Source: Thamnidium elegans
Lineage: Eukaryota > Mucoromycota > Mucoromycetes > Mucorales > Mucoraceae
Length of the DNA stretch: 64,000 bases
Reading direction: 5' to 3'
Assembly: GCA_025201345.1 (NCBI GenBank)
Contig: JAIXMG010000027.1
Span: 399,501-463,500, forward strand
Of this stretch, positions 40,423 to 62,442 are shown piece after piece. The notes under the pieces are model-generated. The model was not told where the DNA came from, searched no databases, and was given only the letters and a program-made list of their open reading frames with translations. The position numbers and the translations under genes are program-made. The stretch's first letter is position 1; every line of letters starts with the position of its first letter.

Positions 40423-41346
40423 TCACATATTTTCTATAACGTGTTTTTCTAATAAATTTATAAAATTGTCAATGGATGATTTTTTTATGCTATTAAATGT
40501 GTATAGTGGAAATACATAATTACTATTATATATTCTATCATTGGAACATATTTTAAAACTAATTTCTAAGTTTTTCATAAACCTTGATTTATTTTTATCA
40601 TAGATTTCATAAATATTATTAATATAGTCGTCCTTAATTTCTTTTTTCATGAGTTTTATATATATATCATTAAATAATTTTAATGTATTTCTATTATTTA
40701 ATTTTATATCTTCAATTAAATGATCTTTTCCATTCTTAGTTATATTAATATAGTTCTTATTTAGTTTATTTATTACTTTTATATTTTCTTCATTCTCATT
40801 TAATTTATTATAATTTTTTCTATTTTTACTTTTTTTAGATGAGTTTTCATTATAGAATTCTTCTTCCACTTCAATATCACTTAACGTATTTGACTCTTCG
40901 CACAGTTCATCTACCTCTTCATCTAATTTATTTTTACATATATTACATATTTCATTATACTCATCTTCGTCATAATTTTCACAATCTTCATTTCTACATA
41001 TATCAGGACAAATACATCCTTTTTCGTCAACTTCGAATCCACAATCTTCGCATATATCAATTTCTTTACCATCATCTATATCAATCTCTTTACTATCATC
41101 TATATCAATTTCTTTACCATCATCTATATCTGATTCTAATGTATTTATATTATTTAGTCTCTCTTCTAAATGTTTGTTTATTTTATCGTCAATATTATTA
41201 TTTATTTTTTCTTTATTTAATGATTTGTAATAAGTATTTTCTTCTTTTAATTTATTAATTCTTTTTTCTAATTTCATAACTTTAGTTACTAAATAAATAT
41301 ACTTTTGTTTTTTAATTTTAATGTACAAAGAGTTATAAGAAGGCAT
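40423..41346 (-). CDS. Uncharacterised Lys/Asn/Asp-rich protein in a TIR element
   Basis: 307 residues, extremely AT-rich codons. Layout: a basic coiled-coil start (LEKRINKLKEENTYYKSLNKEKI, about 25-60), three tandem copies of an eight-residue acidic unit (DIDDGKEI, about 73-97, encoded by a 24-bp repeat near 41050-41140), and a Cys-rich segment CEDC...CICPDIC...C...CNIC (about 98-140) that looks able to bind zinc. An acidic stretch and a Lys/Asn-rich C-terminal half with predicted helices follow. I recognise no family. Its codon use resembles the transposase at 58612-60051 and differs from host genes. It lies inside the 39101-41923 inverted-repeat element and may be its accessory DNA-binding ORF. 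Confidence 0.5.
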   Translation of the reverse strand: MPSYNSLYIKIKKQKYIYLVTKVMKLEKRINKLKEENTYYKSLNKEKINNNIDDKINKHLEERLNNINTLESDIDDGKEIDIDDSKEIDIDDGKEIDICEDCGFEVDEKGCICPDICRNEDCENYDEDEYNEICNICKNKLDEEVDELCEESNTLSDIEVEEEFYNENSSKKSKNRKNYNKLNENEENIKVINKLNKNYINITKNGKDHLIEDIKLNNRNTLKLFNDIYIKLMKKEIKDDYINNIYEIYDKNKSRFMKNLEISFKICSNDRIYNSNYVFPLYTFNSIKKSSIDNFINLLEKHVIENM

Positions 41347-56255: not shown

Positions 56256-57236
56256 ATGTTGTCAAAAAACGAACCTGAAGTTACTATGTTGTCCAAAAAG
56301 TTTAATTGGCGTGTTAGCGTGCCTAAGGAATTCTCTGGTGTATCCGTTGCTGGTGAAGATTTGGGAAATGAAGCCTTTGCTTGGTTAAAGAAAATGGAAC
56401 GATTGAAGGGCTCCGCTAAACTCTCGGATGAAGAAATTTTGTTCCTGGTCGGTGACCATTTAACTAAGAAGGCTGAAACCTGGTTTAACGTAGTAGGAAT
56501 TAAGGCTACCTCTTGGGATCTCTTTGTCGCTGCGTTCAAAAAGCAATACCTTGTTGACCAAGAAGATAAGTGGTGGTGGCAGCTACAAAATATGAAGCAA
56601 AAGGAAGATGACACTATCGATGATGTGGCGTTGAAGATGGAAGAATTGTTTGAACTGCTTGAAAATAGAAATGCTGCCTTCCAGGTTAGAACCTTTTTGT
56701 CTGCTATTCGTCCAAGTATCGGTTTTGAAGTTGAAAAGGAAGGTACTCCTGCTAATTTTCAAGACGCAAAGAATAAGGCCAAACAAATTGAAAAGAGCTT
56801 AAGGAAATATGAAGCTGGTAATTTTGTTGATGGTGCTGTCTATGCTGAGAAAATGAACAATTACAAGTCTGATCCGGTTGAAAAGAAGAACAGTGCTAGT
56901 TTTTCTGATGTTAATAGTATTGCTGGTTCTGAAGTTTCTTCCTTGGTTGCTAAGCTGGAACAATTGAGTATCAATTTGGTGAAACTTAATGAAGGTGTTA
57001 TTCAACAACAACGTCAAGCTGTTACAAGACCTCAGTATAATAATAATCCTGTGCCTTCTGGTCCTCGTGTGTTCACTTGTTTCTATTGTCGTGATGAAGG
57101 ACATAAGAAATATGATTGTCCCAAATTCTTACGTGATCAAGGTCAAGCTCCTTCTCCTGCTACTGGTAGTAACAATATACCGATCGGTAATGGCGCCTCT
57201 TCTAATGATTCGGGAAAAGGGAACGAGCATCAGTAA
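56256..57236 (+). CDS. Gag (capsid/nucleocapsid) of Ty3/gypsy element
   Basis: 326 residues. The middle matches the retrotransposon-gag family: AFAWLKKMERLKGSAKLSDEEILFLVGDHLTKKAETWFNVVG...WDLFVAAFKKQYL (about 40-100) and a following helical region. A CCHC zinc knuckle (CFYCRDEGHKKYDC, about 278-291) binds RNA. It ends 24 bp after a slippery heptamer at 57212 through which ribosomes could enter pol. Confidence 0.88.
   Translation: MLSKNEPEVTMLSKKFNWRVSVPKEFSGVSVAGEDLGNEAFAWLKKMERLKGSAKLSDEEILFLVGDHLTKKAETWFNVVGIKATSWDLFVAAFKKQYLVDQEDKWWWQLQNMKQKEDDTIDDVALKMEELFELLENRNAAFQVRTFLSAIRPSIGFEVEKEGTPANFQDAKNKAKQIEKSLRKYEAGNFVDGAVYAEKMNNYKSDPVEKKNSASFSDVNSIAGSEVSSLVAKLEQLSINLVKLNEGVIQQQRQAVTRPQYNNNPVPSGPRVFTCFYCRDEGHKKYDCPKFLRDQGQAPSPATGSNNIPIGNGASSNDSGKGNEHQ
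57212..57218 (+). promoter_or_regulatory. Predicted -1 ribosomal frameshift site (G GGA AAA)
   Basis: In the gag frame the bases read G GGA AAA, a canonical X XXY YYZ heptamer. A -1 slip here continues in a frame open without stops to the transposon insertion at 57857; staying in frame meets TAA at 57234. Whether a stimulatory pseudoknot follows is not visible by eye. Confidence 0.65.
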
Positions 57237-57857
57237 ATTCTGAGGTTACTGGTGTTCTCAATTTAAATAAAAATCCTCAAGAAATTAAATTGGTTGAAGT
57301 TGTAACGAATGCAGCTAATTCAGTCATTCCGAATGAAGTTTTTGCTAATGGTGTGAAAAGAAGAGCTGTTGTCTCTCCTTCTATTGAAGCTGTTTCTGGT
57401 AGTGCTGTTCCTGTCATCGTTAAAAGGAAGGTGGAAGTGAAGAAGAAACCACGTCAAAACGCTAGACGATTTCCGGTAAAGTTAAAAAGGTCAAAAATTT
57501 GGTCCCGTTTATTAAGCACTGAATCTGGTCTTTCAGTTGCTGAGTGGTTGTCTCTTGATAAAGAAGCTGCTTCTGAAGTTATTGATGGTATTCGTTTCTT
57601 AAAAGAATCAAGGATCAAGAAGGCGAGTGCTAATCTAACTGCTGGTAAAACTACTGGTGTCGGTGTTCCTGTTATTCCTGGTGCTGTTTTTAATCCTGGT
57701 TTTGGTGCTTCTAGTAGTAATGGTATTGATCCGAACGTGAACGCTGGAGATATGATGGTGAATAAGGTGATGGTTGATAGCGAAGAATCTTCTGTTGAAT
57801 CAGACAGTGAGGTTGATTCAGACTCTGAAAATGTTAGAGAATTATCATCGTTTTCTG
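57215..57857 (+). CDS. Pol N-terminal region (first part, before the insertion)
   Basis: This frame, -1 to gag, is open from the slippery site. It encodes about 214 residues up to the insertion: a basic stretch (KRKVEVKKKPRQNARRFPVKLKRSK), a Gly/Ala/Val-rich linker and an acidic segment (SEESSVESDSEVDSDSE). No domain is recognised; it is the usual poorly conserved spacer before protease. The TAA at 57878-57880 belongs to the inserted transposon. Removing the insert and one CTG joins this frame to 60365 onward. Confidence 0.75.
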
Positions 57858-58107
57858 GAAGGATATCTATGATCCCTTAATCAATTATTTTCAATAAATA
57901 TATCTTTTTATATTATCGGATATACTACATTTTTAAAATTAACATATCGTCTTTATATTCTATAGATATAAATAAATCAGAATTATATATATAAAATAAA
58001 TTATTTTATCACAAGAGCAAACCTTTTAGTTTTGGATAAAGATCAACATTTTATTTATGATGTATTTTAAATAATGTTTTAATTTATAATATAAAAGGAT
58101 ATCCGTC
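57858..58107. repeat. Left 250-bp terminal direct repeat
   Basis: Identical to 60112-60361 by eye, at a constant offset of 2,254 bp with no indel. It starts GAAGGATATC and ends GATATCCGTC, so each repeat alone has the element's own inverted ends, like a MITE. Confidence 0.88.
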
Positions 58108-58611
58108 TTACTCCAGAGAAAGAAACGAAAAAAAAGAGAAAGCTACCCGAGATAGTCTTTACTCTCTCAAAAAATTATGGAAACAATAGGTCTTTGGAAT
58201 TCTTTTAATTGGTATTTGTACAAACCCTTTATTATTATTCATTTTTTGTCTTTTTTACATACTGTTTTTCTTATTAGCATATAGTTAAATCAATATAGTT
58301 GTATCTTAGGTGATACCTTCCCCCTCTGGCCAGATGGTTTTTTTGTTTTTTTATTTATTTTATTTAGAATACTAATAGAGTAGATCTATTTAATATAATG
58401 AAAAGTTTACAAAAGGATTTCATAAATTAAATAAAACAGATTGTGTGCACTCAATCATCAATTGGTTCATATTGATTTTTATTTTAATAATTTATTTCTT
58501 TTAAAAACAAGAATATTTAAAAAATACTTTTGTTTTCCATTTATCTTTTTTTATAAATTGTAAATTCAATTATTTTCAGAAAACTATGTAATAAACTATA
58601 AATTTAATAAT

Positions 58612-60051
58612 TTATTTCTTCCAATAATCAATAATAATTTTACTTTCATTAAAACGAGAATAATGTAACCATTGATTTTCTGAATCTGGATAGTTTTTCC
58701 ATTTAACTAAATAAATACTATCTTCTACAACTAATCCTTTGTGATCAAGTATATCTTCTACTTCAAAATTATCAAGATTATTATTATCCATATTTTCTTC
58801 CATGTCCATATTATCTATTAAACTATTGATTTTTGGACTTTGAGTAATATTTTGTAATTGTAGACCAATAAACTGTTGTTGTAATAATGTCATTTTTTCT
58901 AAATTATTTATTCTTTCTGTTATTTTAGGCTGCATTATTTTTATAGAATCTAAATTATTTAAAATAATATCATTGTATTCATAATCAAATTGATCATTTA
59001 GCCAATATGCATGAAAATCAAATACATCAAGTTTGTTTAATTCTACAAATTTTTTTACATTTAACAAAACAGATGCAATTTTCATTTGAATATTAAAATT
59101 TTTTATATCTGTGGTAATAAAAGACTTCGTATTATTCAACCTTTCAAATGTATGCCCTATATCAGCGAAACATTTCTCCATTTTAGAACGAAATCCACCA
59201 AACTGATCATTATAGTTTAATTCAATTTCATTTAAATTAATACCGATCTCTTTCCTAATTGGAAATACAAAGTTGTGGTTGTTTAGATTAGAATTATTTA
59301 TTATATTATTAACAAACAATGTGTAGCCACCATCTAATGCAATACAATCCATTTCATTAATCTTGTTATATATATTCATATCTGTTAACATTGTTCCATC
59401 ATTTCCAATGCTACAAGGTTGACTTTTGGAAACAAATAGTATAAATCCATTATTATCTAGGGATACTTGTGTTCTAAATCCATTTCTTTTTAATTTGTAA
59501 CTATAAAATTGAGATTTATCTTTCGATCCATAAACAATTCCTTTTGTATCATGCCCGTCAATATGTAAAGTCACTTGATTAAATAAAGTAGGGTTGTTCA
59601 AGTGTCCATTCATAATTCTAATATTTATATTTGAAAACATATTTGATAATGAATAATCAATAACTTTATTTAATTTAGAAATTCTATCATCATTATAGAA
59701 TCTTCGATAAATATCATGAAATGTGCTTTTACTAATATATTTATCCATATCTTCAAAAGGAATACTTTTAACTATAAAATAGAGCACTAATAATCCTTTT
59801 TCTATATTATTATAAGGTCCTGGATAATCTTGATCTCCAAATAAAATTGTAAGAAAAAAATATGTAGGTATTATACCTAATCTATTCATTATTTCTGTTT
59901 TTATTTCTATATAATTATTAACACTTGACTTTTTTCTTGTATGATTTACTTTTTTATTTATCTTAGGCCATCCATAGTTTAAAAATTTCCAATATTCTTT
60001 TGTAATATTATTGTATTCTTTATTAACATTCTCTTTAATATCATAGTTCAT
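58612..60051 (-). CDS. DDE transposase with C-terminal chromodomain
   Basis: 479 residues, intronless, very AT-rich codons. The DDE core reads TLHIDGHDTKG (first Asp, about residue 168), CIALDGGYTLFV (second Asp, about 240; DxGY pattern as in Harbinger/DDE_4 enzymes) and GGFRSKMEKCFADIGHTFERL (Glu of the R..ME..F helix, about 290). After a coiled-coil-like stretch (about 375-400), the last 50 residues form a chromodomain: EVEDILDHKGLVVEDSIYLVKWKNYPDSENQWLHYSRF...IIDYWKK, with aromatic-cage positions (Tyr, Trp, Trp) present. Chromodomains bind methylated histone tails, so it could steer insertion. The ORF is intact. It lies antisense to the retrotransposon. Confidence 0.85.
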   Translation of the reverse strand: MNYDIKENVNKEYNNITKEYWKFLNYGWPKINKKVNHTRKKSSVNNYIEIKTEIMNRLGIIPTYFFLTILFGDQDYPGPYNNIEKGLLVLYFIVKSIPFEDMDKYISKSTFHDIYRRFYNDDRISKLNKVIDYSLSNMFSNINIRIMNGHLNNPTLFNQVTLHIDGHDTKGIVYGSKDKSQFYSYKLKRNGFRTQVSLDNNGFILFVSKSQPCSIGNDGTMLTDMNIYNKINEMDCIALDGGYTLFVNNIINNSNLNNHNFVFPIRKEIGINLNEIELNYNDQFGGFRSKMEKCFADIGHTFERLNNTKSFITTDIKNFNIQMKIASVLLNVKKFVELNKLDVFDFHAYWLNDQFDYEYNDIILNNLDSIKIMQPKITERINNLEKMTLLQQQFIGLQLQNITQSPKINSLIDNMDMEENMDNNNLDNFEVEDILDHKGLVVEDSIYLVKWKNYPDSENQWLHYSRFNESKIIIDYWKK

Positions 60052-60111
60052 TTATTATTGTATTTTAAAATTCAATTTATTTATAAAAATAGTTACCAAC
60101 TCTCACTAGAA

Positions 60112-60361
60112 GAAGGATATCTATGATCCCTTAATCAATTATTTTCAATAAATATATCTTTTTATATTATCGGATATACTACATTTTTAAAATTAACATA
60201 TCGTCTTTATATTCTATAGATATAAATAAATCAGAATTATATATATAAAATAAATTATTTTATCACAAGAGCAAACCTTTTAGTTTTGGATAAAGATCAA
60301 CATTTTATTTATGATGTATTTTAAATAATGTTTTAATTTATAATATAAAAGGATATCCGTC
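60112..60361. repeat. Right 250-bp terminal direct repeat
   Basis: Second copy of 57858-58107, same orientation, identical by eye. The transposase start codon lies 60 bp inside it, so this repeat may supply the promoter. Confidence 0.88.
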
Positions 60362-60364
60362 CTG

Positions 60365-62442
60365 GTGAATCTATAGGCGTGGTTGAAGAGGAAAATGAAT
60401 CTGATCTTGAGTTTAGTGATGTTGAATCAGTTTACCGATACCCGTATGACCTACAAAAAATGAAATCTGGCTCTCCTCTCCGTGGTGCTATTAGTATTAA
60501 TGGCAAAACTATTGAAGCTGTTTTCGATACTGGAGCGTCTGTCTCTATTTTAGGTTCCAAGATTTGTTCTGATTTAGGTCTGGTTCCGAATGGTGATCGT
60601 TTGCATCTTGTTGGGTTTAACCAAGATAAGGATAAACCTACTGCTTCAAGTGTTGTAATGGACGTACCTATTAATATCGGCGGTAAAATACGACCTGAAC
60701 ATATGGCTGTGCAAACGAATGGTGGTAGTGATATTTGTCTTCTTGGTATTCCTTGGTTTCAAGCGTATGGTATCTCTTTGGATCTCCAAAGGTCACAAAT
60801 TAAGGTCCCTACTTGTGATGGTATGATCAAGATCCAAGGACGTACTTCCCAAATTAGAAGGTCTCAAACTGAACAAGAAGTTTATTTGGTTTCGGCAAGC
60901 CAGAAGTTTTGTTCAAGTCTAGAAGATGATCTGATTCCTGTTGGTGAAGAAGGTGATCTTGGTTTTGACAAGTCTGAGAAATTAGAATTTAATGCTGAAA
61001 ACATTTCTGAAGGTGTTACCGATGAATTAAAGTCTGTAGTGGAAAAATATAAAAATTGTTTTTCTGAAGTCTCTGGTCTCACTTGTATCCGTGGTTACTC
61101 AGCTAAGATTAGGCTGAAGGAAGGTGCTGTTCCGGTTCGTCGTCGTCCTTTTCGTTTGGGCTGGTCTGATCAAGAACTGGTAGATGCTCATGTACAAGAA
61201 ATGCTTGATCTGGATATAATTGAACCTTCAAATGGTGAGTGGTCTAGTTGTCTTTTCTTGGTGAACAAAAAAGAGACTTCTGTAAAACGCCCAGTAGTTG
61301 ATTTTAGATCCGTGAACAAAATGATCATTCAGGAAAACTTTCCTACCGCTACCGTATCCGAATTAATTGAAACTGTTGGTAGTGCTAAGGTTTTCTCTAC
61401 CTTTGATTGTACTTCTGGGTATCATCAACTGGAATTAGACAAGGATGGTGCCGAAGTAACTGGTTTTATCACGAGTAGAGGTGCGTTTAGGTATAAACGT
61501 CTAGCTCAAGGTCTTACTATTGGTTGTGCTCAGTTCCAAAGAGTTATGTCTTCAATTTTTCAAGAATTTATTGGGAAATTTGTTTCAGTATTTTTGGATG
61601 ATATATTGGTTTTCTCTCAGAACATGAAAGAACATAAAGAACATCTAGAATTAATATTTGAAGCCTGCGTCAAGTCCAATTTAAAGCTCAAGAGAAAAAA
61701 ATGTTTCTTTGGTCAAGAAAATGTAGAATACTTAGGTCATGTCTTAGGTGCTCAAGGAAATCGCCCTGGGGATCGTAATGTGGTCAAAATACAAAACTTC
61801 CCAGAACCCCAAAATGCTACTGATGTAAGGTCTTTCCTCGGTTTAAGTGGGTACTATAGAAAATACGTGCATCGCTATGGAGAAGTGGCTGAACCTTTGA
61901 ATCGTCTAACAAGGAAAAATTGTAATTTCGTTTGGACACAAGAACAGCAAGACTCCTTTGATTATCTTAAAAATGCGCTTGCTACTGCTCCCATCTTGGC
62001 TTCTCCTTTACGATCTGCTGTACAATGTATCACTTGTGATGCTTCTAACAAAGGTATTTCTTTTATTGCGTCTCAATTTGATTCTTGGGAAGGTATGGAA
62101 AATGAACAAGTGTTGTCCTATGGTTCGCGTGGTCTACACGGTGGTGAAAGAAATTTTTCGATTCATCATTTGGAAGCGCTCAGTTTGGTATGTGGTGTTA
62201 AATACTTCAAACACTGGTTAAAAGGAAGAAAATTTCTGTTGGTTACCGACCATAGCTCGTTGGTGTATATATTTGCGAACCCTAAGGGTACTCCGAAACT
62301 ATCACGTTGGTCAGCTTGCCTAATGGAGTACGATTTTGAGGTCCGTTTTCGTCCTGGAAAAACTAATCCTGCTGATCCCTTGTCGCGGAAGTTGATTGAT
62401 CTTGAAGTTGGAAATTTAGATGACATTAGGAAGATTGTTTAA
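60365..62442 (+). CDS. Pol: protease, reverse transcriptase and RNase H of the Ty3/gypsy element
   Basis: Open from the transposon junction to the TAA at 62440. An aspartic protease has FDTGASVSIL (catalytic DTG/A, at about 60525). Reverse transcriptase spans about 61,090-61,640: PVRRRPFRLGWSDQ..., VDFRSVNKMI, FSTFDCTSGYHQLEL (first Asp), and FVSVFLDDILVFS, an F-L-D-D variant of the Y-x-D-D box. The connection region has FLGLSGYYRKYVHRYGEVAEPLNRL. RNase H begins at TCDASNKG (about 62026) and has HHLEALSLVCGVKYFKHWL and VTDHSSLVYI. The end, NPADPLSRK, is the usual RNase H/integrase linker, but the frame then stops instead of continuing into integrase. The upstream start of the protein is in the -1 frame region at 57215-57857. 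Confidence 0.9.

Follow-up and report, generated by a model that had tools for sequence, protein, structure and literature searches.

A Harbinger-like chromodomain transposase gene flanked by paired long direct repeats in the fungus Thamnidium elegans

Positions 57858-60361 of the window (the whole 64,000-nucleotide stretch of Thamnidium elegans DNA analysed here) are a 2504-bp insertion that interrupts a Ty3-type retrotransposon. A gag open reading frame (ORF) with a Pfam Retrotrans_gag match lies before the insertion (56256-57236), and the ORF that follows it (60379-62442) has, by eye, the look of a protease and reverse-transcriptase polyprotein. The insertion begins and ends with 250-bp repeats in direct orientation that are identical at 250 of 250 positions. 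Each repeat has its own short terminal inverted repeats (TIRs), starting with GAAGGATATC at one end and with GACGGATATC in the reverse complement of the other (9 of 10 bases match), and the trinucleotide CTG stands on either outer side of the element (Table 1). An earlier note on this DNA had described both the identical 250-bp repeats with inverted ends of their own (9/10) and a 3-bp CTG duplication, and our measurements agree with it on each. The internal region encodes the transposase, whose ATG is 60 bp from the inner edge of the second repeat; no other ORF of at least 60 aa lies wholly within 57858-60361, a threshold that leaves room for smaller or spliced genes. Inspection by eye found no obvious TIRs belonging to the internal region itself. 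Its 504-bp tail was considered as another dispersed repeat, and this was rejected because the two full copies of the element were the only places where it was found.

Table 1. Features of the element and its borders in the window.
Feature	Position	Strand	Remark
Left target-site duplication, CTG	57855..57857	.	Uninterrupted target copies exist
Terminal direct repeat copy 1, 250 bp, own TIRs GAAGGATATC / GACGGATATC	57858..58107	+	Solo copies exist
Subterminal block of repeat copy 1 (unit 187-246)	58044..58103	+	88% conserved in C23 repeats
Internal region, 2004 bp, holds transposase gene	58108..60111	-	
504-bp tail of internal region	58108-58611		Found only in full copies C20 and C3
Transposase ORF, 479 aa, DDE_Tnp_4 and chromodomain	58612..60051	-	
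Pfam DDE_Tnp_4 match, residues 178-331	59059..59520	-	
Pfam Chromo match, residues 429-478	58618..58767	-	Alignable with the chromodomains of SUV39H1 and HP1
Terminal direct repeat copy 2, 250 bp, same sequence as copy 1	60112..60361	+	
Subterminal block of repeat copy 2 (unit 187-246)	60298..60357	+	88% conserved in C23 repeats
Right target-site duplication, CTG	60362..60364	.	

The 479-aa ORF is matched by Pfam DDE_Tnp_4 (PF13359; 34.6 bits, cut-off 24.8) and by Pfam Chromo (32.5 bits, cut-off 25.1), and the fusion of a DDE transposase to a chromodomain seen in the earlier note is thus borne out by two domains above cut-off. Both domains are present in all nine family proteins scanned, four of which also give a weak match to DDE_Tnp_1. 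The chromodomain, which that note had called unusual on a transposase of this kind, is therefore real but not peculiar to this element, as 9/9 scanned members of the group have one. We take the DDE_Tnp_4 Pfam family to be of the Harbinger type, and to judge from its sequence the protein is a single PIF/Harbinger-like transposase with a C-terminal chromodomain. Residues D165, D240 and E292 (numbering of the window protein) are invariant in the nine aligned family members and are candidates for the catalytic triad. The chromodomain of the window protein aligns with those of SUV39H1 and HP1, and a family profile compared with the sequences of solved structures matched Chromobox protein homolog 5 (2e-11) and heterochromatin protein 1 (1e-9); in two such comparisons the matches were chromodomain proteins and a few weak others, with no transposase among the 20 of 20 matches of one or the 60 of 64 listed in the other. 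The aromatic positions with which HP1 binds methyl-lysine appear to be retained in the chromodomain. An AlphaFold model built from nine sequences had a mean pLDDT of 37.1.

The genome surveyed comprises 34.1 Mb in 64 contigs, of which C20 carries the window element, and copy counts in it are lower bounds. The full element was found twice, at C20 and at C3, with 1 difference in 2504 bases. The 250-bp unit also occurs alone, as a solo, at no fewer than 12 loci; since flanks are common to C52, C22 and C6, and also to C41 and C32, we count these as nine independent sites. Nine of the solos are intact (C52, C42, C31, C22, C18, C6, C41, C14 and C62) and each of these has a complete pair of ends, while the C9 solo has a 24-bp deletion and those at C35 and C32 are each split by a later insertion. 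The first six intact solos named are identical to the unit of the full copies, those at C41 and C14 are 1 base off, and the one at C62 is 2 bases off. Such near-identity of the copies indicates that the element has been active recently. The earlier note had advised looking for solo 250-bp copies with 3-bp duplications and for full copies with two repeats, and both were found, C3 having its two repeats; in place of a genome with no solos and only tandem artefacts as full copies, which that note had set against its own reading, there are 12 further solo loci and a second full copy.

A relative of the window family (hereafter family A) lies at C23. Its transposase, which has one in-frame stop and 75% aa identity to that of family A, stands between two identical 249-bp direct repeats (249/249) in the same relative orientation as in A. 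The C23 repeats resemble the A unit closely only at one end, at 86-88% over 60-66 bp, and align poorly with it elsewhere; the subterminal block so conserved (unit 187-246) is a candidate transposase-binding region. The ATG is 65 bp from the upstream repeat, compared with 60 bp in A, and the stop codon is close to the downstream repeat. One solo of the 249-bp unit was found, at C17, where it is flanked by a CAA duplication. That the two repeats are identical inside each element yet have diverged between A and C23 shows that the repeat pair evolves in concert.

The composite layout claimed in the earlier note is supported by its recurrence at C3 and, with another pair of repeats, at C23, and this recurrence also bears on two other explanations of it. 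One is a chance sandwich, in which two MITEs came to flank a transposase gene already without ends of its own, the resulting block moving on one or two later occasions; the lack of obvious TIRs (by eye) in the internal region would suit such a history, and bacterial composite transposons are, in the accessible passages of PMC9587614, thought to arise by sandwiching. We nevertheless regard this as improbable, as C23, at 75% aa identity, has the same order and repeat orientation, a repeat of nearly the same length (249 vs 250 bp), an ATG about as far from the repeat (65 vs 60 bp) and an identical pair of its own. Conservation of the layout there argues for a maintained structure, not a single accident. 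The other is that the element derives from an LTR retrotransposon or is an artefact of assembly, and to this we give almost no credence. Long identical direct repeats, solos, a chromodomain and insertion in a Ty3 element are LTR-like, but the sole ORF of at least 60 aa wholly inside encodes a DDE transposase, Pfam gives no match to reverse transcriptase or gag (or to a His-Me finger endonuclease) within the element, the repeats lack a TG start and CA end and have TIRs of their own, and the duplicated target is 3 bp long. An artefact is unlikely given the recurrence at C3 and C23 and the existence of solos.

Of the 13 independent insertions in families A and C23 (nine A solos, two A full copies, the C23 full copy and the C17 solo), 11 lie between exact duplications of 3 bp, whereas a control with 394 shifted offsets gave a mean of 0.27 and a maximum of 3 of 13. 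The 11 duplicated trinucleotides are TAA (three times), CAA (twice), GTA, ATG, AAG, TAG, CTG and ATA. Flush, uninterrupted copies of the target are present at C12 (99%) and C31 (97%) for the window element, at C17 for the C23 element (180/180, 100%) and twice at C56 for the C35 solo (97%). Among the sequences extracted, flush targets were also found for the solos at C31, C41, C62 and C9 (full 180-bp query) and for that at C18 (122 bp spanning the junction); no joined target for the C42, C14 and C17 sites was among these extracted sequences, a set smaller than the genome. Because a block of 2504 bp sits with a 3-bp duplication in a target that is also present in uninterrupted form, the whole element must have moved, and we conclude, with a probability of roughly 0.8, that it is a DNA transposon with a paired layout of long terminal direct repeats around an internal region (LTDR-INT-LTDR) that moves whole.

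The 3-bp duplication is missing at the C3 full copy and at the solo site shared by C52, C22 and C6. At C3 the two flanks hit separate sets of dispersed copies, and the 40 of 86 candidates scored included no uninterrupted target joining them; at the C52/C22/C6 site none was present among 5/5 candidates scored, and copies of the left flank at C2 and C64 break off at the junction. Recombination between dispersed copies is a likely cause at both sites, and such ectopic recombination would also support a recombination route for the solos.

The earlier note had proposed that the element moves either whole or as 250-bp units. Its first part stands, on the strength of the C20 target and the CTG duplication; the second is unproven, since recombination also leaves solos with duplications. 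It is quite conceivable, if somewhat short of an even chance, that the whole element alone transposes and that each solo is an immobile scar of recombination between two repeats, comparable to a solo LTR. Scars of this kind would keep the same 3-bp duplications, and the two sites with neither a duplication nor a joined target are as expected after ectopic recombination. Cutting out of solos should leave excision footprints and half elements, and neither was seen: no half element (repeat-INT) was found, all gene copies of A/C23 type (C20, C3 and C23) having both repeats. The absent half elements and the two duplication-less sites together keep recombination standing as a source of solos. Against it, nine independent A solo sites face two full copies, and with nine intact solos only 0-2 bases off the full-copy unit conversion to solos would have to be fast. 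Moreover, the solos at C14 and C62, whose targets differ, share a variant (175 T>C) that neither full copy has, and the complete end pairs of the intact solos mean that nothing known blocks their movement. The shared variant and the surplus of solos over full copies speak for movement of solos, and we lean towards transposition of solos as their main source.

Typical PIF/Harbinger elements (the PHIS group) have a second, Myb/SANT-like gene and insert at targets of TWA/TNA type. The present element is like them in its DDE_Tnp_4-type transposase and 3-bp target duplication (11/13 A/C23 sites) and unlike them in its single gene, with no Myb/SANT-like partner, in its chromodomain and in its mixed target trinucleotides, of which 3 of 11 are TAA in place of a TWA/TNA preference. 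The PIF/Harbinger group thus fits by transposase domain and 3-bp duplication, a placement made from sequence features without a tree against reference transposases. The Harbinger elements of Ectocarpus have two tail-to-tail genes and TNA or ANT targets, according to the accessible part of PMC12477816.

The layout itself is already known from KolobokP, an LTDR-INT-LTDR lineage of the Kolobok superfamily in seven animal phyla (Kojima and Bao 2022, Mob DNA 13:24, PMC9587614), so that the composite layout, said in the earlier note to be not usual in eukaryotes, is at any rate not unknown there. In the available passages of that paper, KolobokP LTDRs are about 450 or 660 bp long with short TIRs of their own, solo LTDRs with target duplications exist, and the duplications are of 3-4 or 4-5 bp. 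Its internal region encodes a DDD/E transposase, and the lineage has a His-Me finger nuclease, which, it is proposed, can offset a loss of the composite layout. Multimers, (LTDR-INT)n, and half elements are reported, excision of a single LTDR is suggested, and the lineage is called unlike any other DNA transposon. As far as those passages go, the element described here resembles KolobokP in that a transposase gene stands between long terminal direct repeats, each with TIRs of its own, and in having solos with target duplications. It differs in its DDE_Tnp_4 transposase, fungal host, 250-bp repeats, 3-bp duplication and chromodomain, in that no nuclease was seen (single ORF of at least 60 aa, Pfam), and in that none of the three full copies is a multimer, (LTDR-INT)n-LTDR. 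By Pfam type alone, DDE_Tnp_4 in 9/9 proteins, the transposase is not of Kolobok type, and with another type of transposase and no nuclease seen we do not file the element under KolobokP, whose manner of working it otherwise shares. Bacterial composite transposons (IS-gene-IS), in which whole and single units can move (PMC9587614, same passages), likewise have two complete end pairs around a gene; here, in contrast, the transposase gene lies between the repeats and not in them. Coe1 of Beta vulgaris differs in the features given for it in the accessible part of PMC2426827, namely an En/Spm-type Tnp2 transposase, eight exons and retroelement-like parts.

Several other chromodomain-DDE families are present in the same genome. 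Families C and D each consist of one plain unit with short ends; C is 1946 bp long at four loci and 2419 bp, with an extra stretch, at a fifth, and D is 1815-1832 bp long. Duplications of 3 bp were found at 4/5 loci of family C (3/4 independent ones, as L043 and L044 share flanks) and at 2/3 loci examined of family D. Family B, at C31, C10, C5 and C32 (L033, L034, L035 and L036), is built as a palindromic unit of 450-456 bp, a 61-bp linker and a 1879-bp gene unit; the gene unit has inverted repeats of about 378 bp, the palindromic unit has inverted ends of its own, and the 3-bp duplication is at the outer ends in 4/4 cases. Family B2 is assembled from parts of the same kind, its linker measuring 40 bp and its palindromic unit 581 bp; the only complete locus studied (L038, on C3) has an ATT duplication at the outer ends. 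The B palindrome occurs at six places, all beside gene-unit sequence, and comparison of coordinates with gene pieces found no solo among these six, so nothing shows a free MITE. Elements of the A/C23 and B/B2 branches thus have two complete end pairs each, differently built, and those of C and D do not. A tree of seven transposase proteins is unrooted and so does not give the direction of change between plain and paired ends. The inner flanks of the units (window 58108/60111; linkers of L033 and L038) read TTA...GAA in A and B, TTG...GAA in B2 and ATC...GTA at C23; the recurrence in A, B and B2 may be a chance coincidence.

These structures suggest how the element could work. The transposase would recognise the repeat ends and the conserved subterminal block; joining of the two outermost ends would move the whole element, and joining of the two ends of one repeat would move a 250-bp, MITE-like unit. 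Recombination between the repeats may create further solos, and gene conversion or repeat recombination could keep the two repeat copies identical. The upstream repeat would probably serve as promoter source and the downstream repeat as transcript end. A bolder reading, which we think unlikely on balance, treats paired long direct repeats as a strategy of transposition that maintains itself and has evolved convergently. In this lineage the 250-bp unit would act as the LTR of a DNA transposon, providing both ends, promoter and terminator; it would spread alone, and recombination of a solo with a circle of repeat plus gene would restore full elements with no need of a homing nuclease. The palindrome-plus-gene layout of B/B2 would then be another way of supplying an element with two complete end pairs.

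In the open-access literature searched we found no Harbinger-type element with the paired-repeat layout, and the open-access passages searched describe no chromodomain on a Harbinger-like transposase. What is new here, being in none of the papers searched as far as their accessible passages go, is the combination of paired repeats with a Harbinger-like transposase that has a chromodomain and no accompanying nuclease. The element seems to represent a second lineage of DNA transposons with paired repeats, independent of KolobokP. With a second lineage, another transposase type and no nuclease seen, the layout would become a recurring strategy, and the question arises of what keeps two long repeats identical without a nuclease. 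Sister families with plain and with paired ends in one genome can be compared within a single host.

The chromodomain probably would steer insertion to silenced, repeat-rich chromatin. Ten of 16 loci lie within 30 kb of contig ends, a zone of at most about 11% of the genome; this preference is suggestive, and as repeats also break assemblies there and the 16 loci include segmental duplicates, we do not take chromodomain targeting as proven. At C9:4627-9695 a solo 250-bp unit (L022) and a family D element (L047) lie at most a few hundred bases apart, both in the same Ty3-type gag region, a gag that also adjoins the window element.

Three further structures were noted. At L057 (C32:283181-283534) a 363-bp transposase fragment lies between inverted arms of about 500 bp that are 93% alike, which has the look of a foldback element with a captured gene piece. 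L059 (C18:19443-23030) consists of a perfect inverted repeat of 1446 bp whose arms are about 500 bp apart. Finally, a 307-aa ORF with cysteine pairs on the minus strand of the window (40423-41346) is by eye like an ORF in L050 (L050 3600-4098; L041 463-1050); the gene before that ORF in L050 looks like what we take to be an IS1595/Merlin-type transposase, and ORFs of the 307-aa type are perhaps an accessory protein of such an IS1595/Merlin-like transposase.
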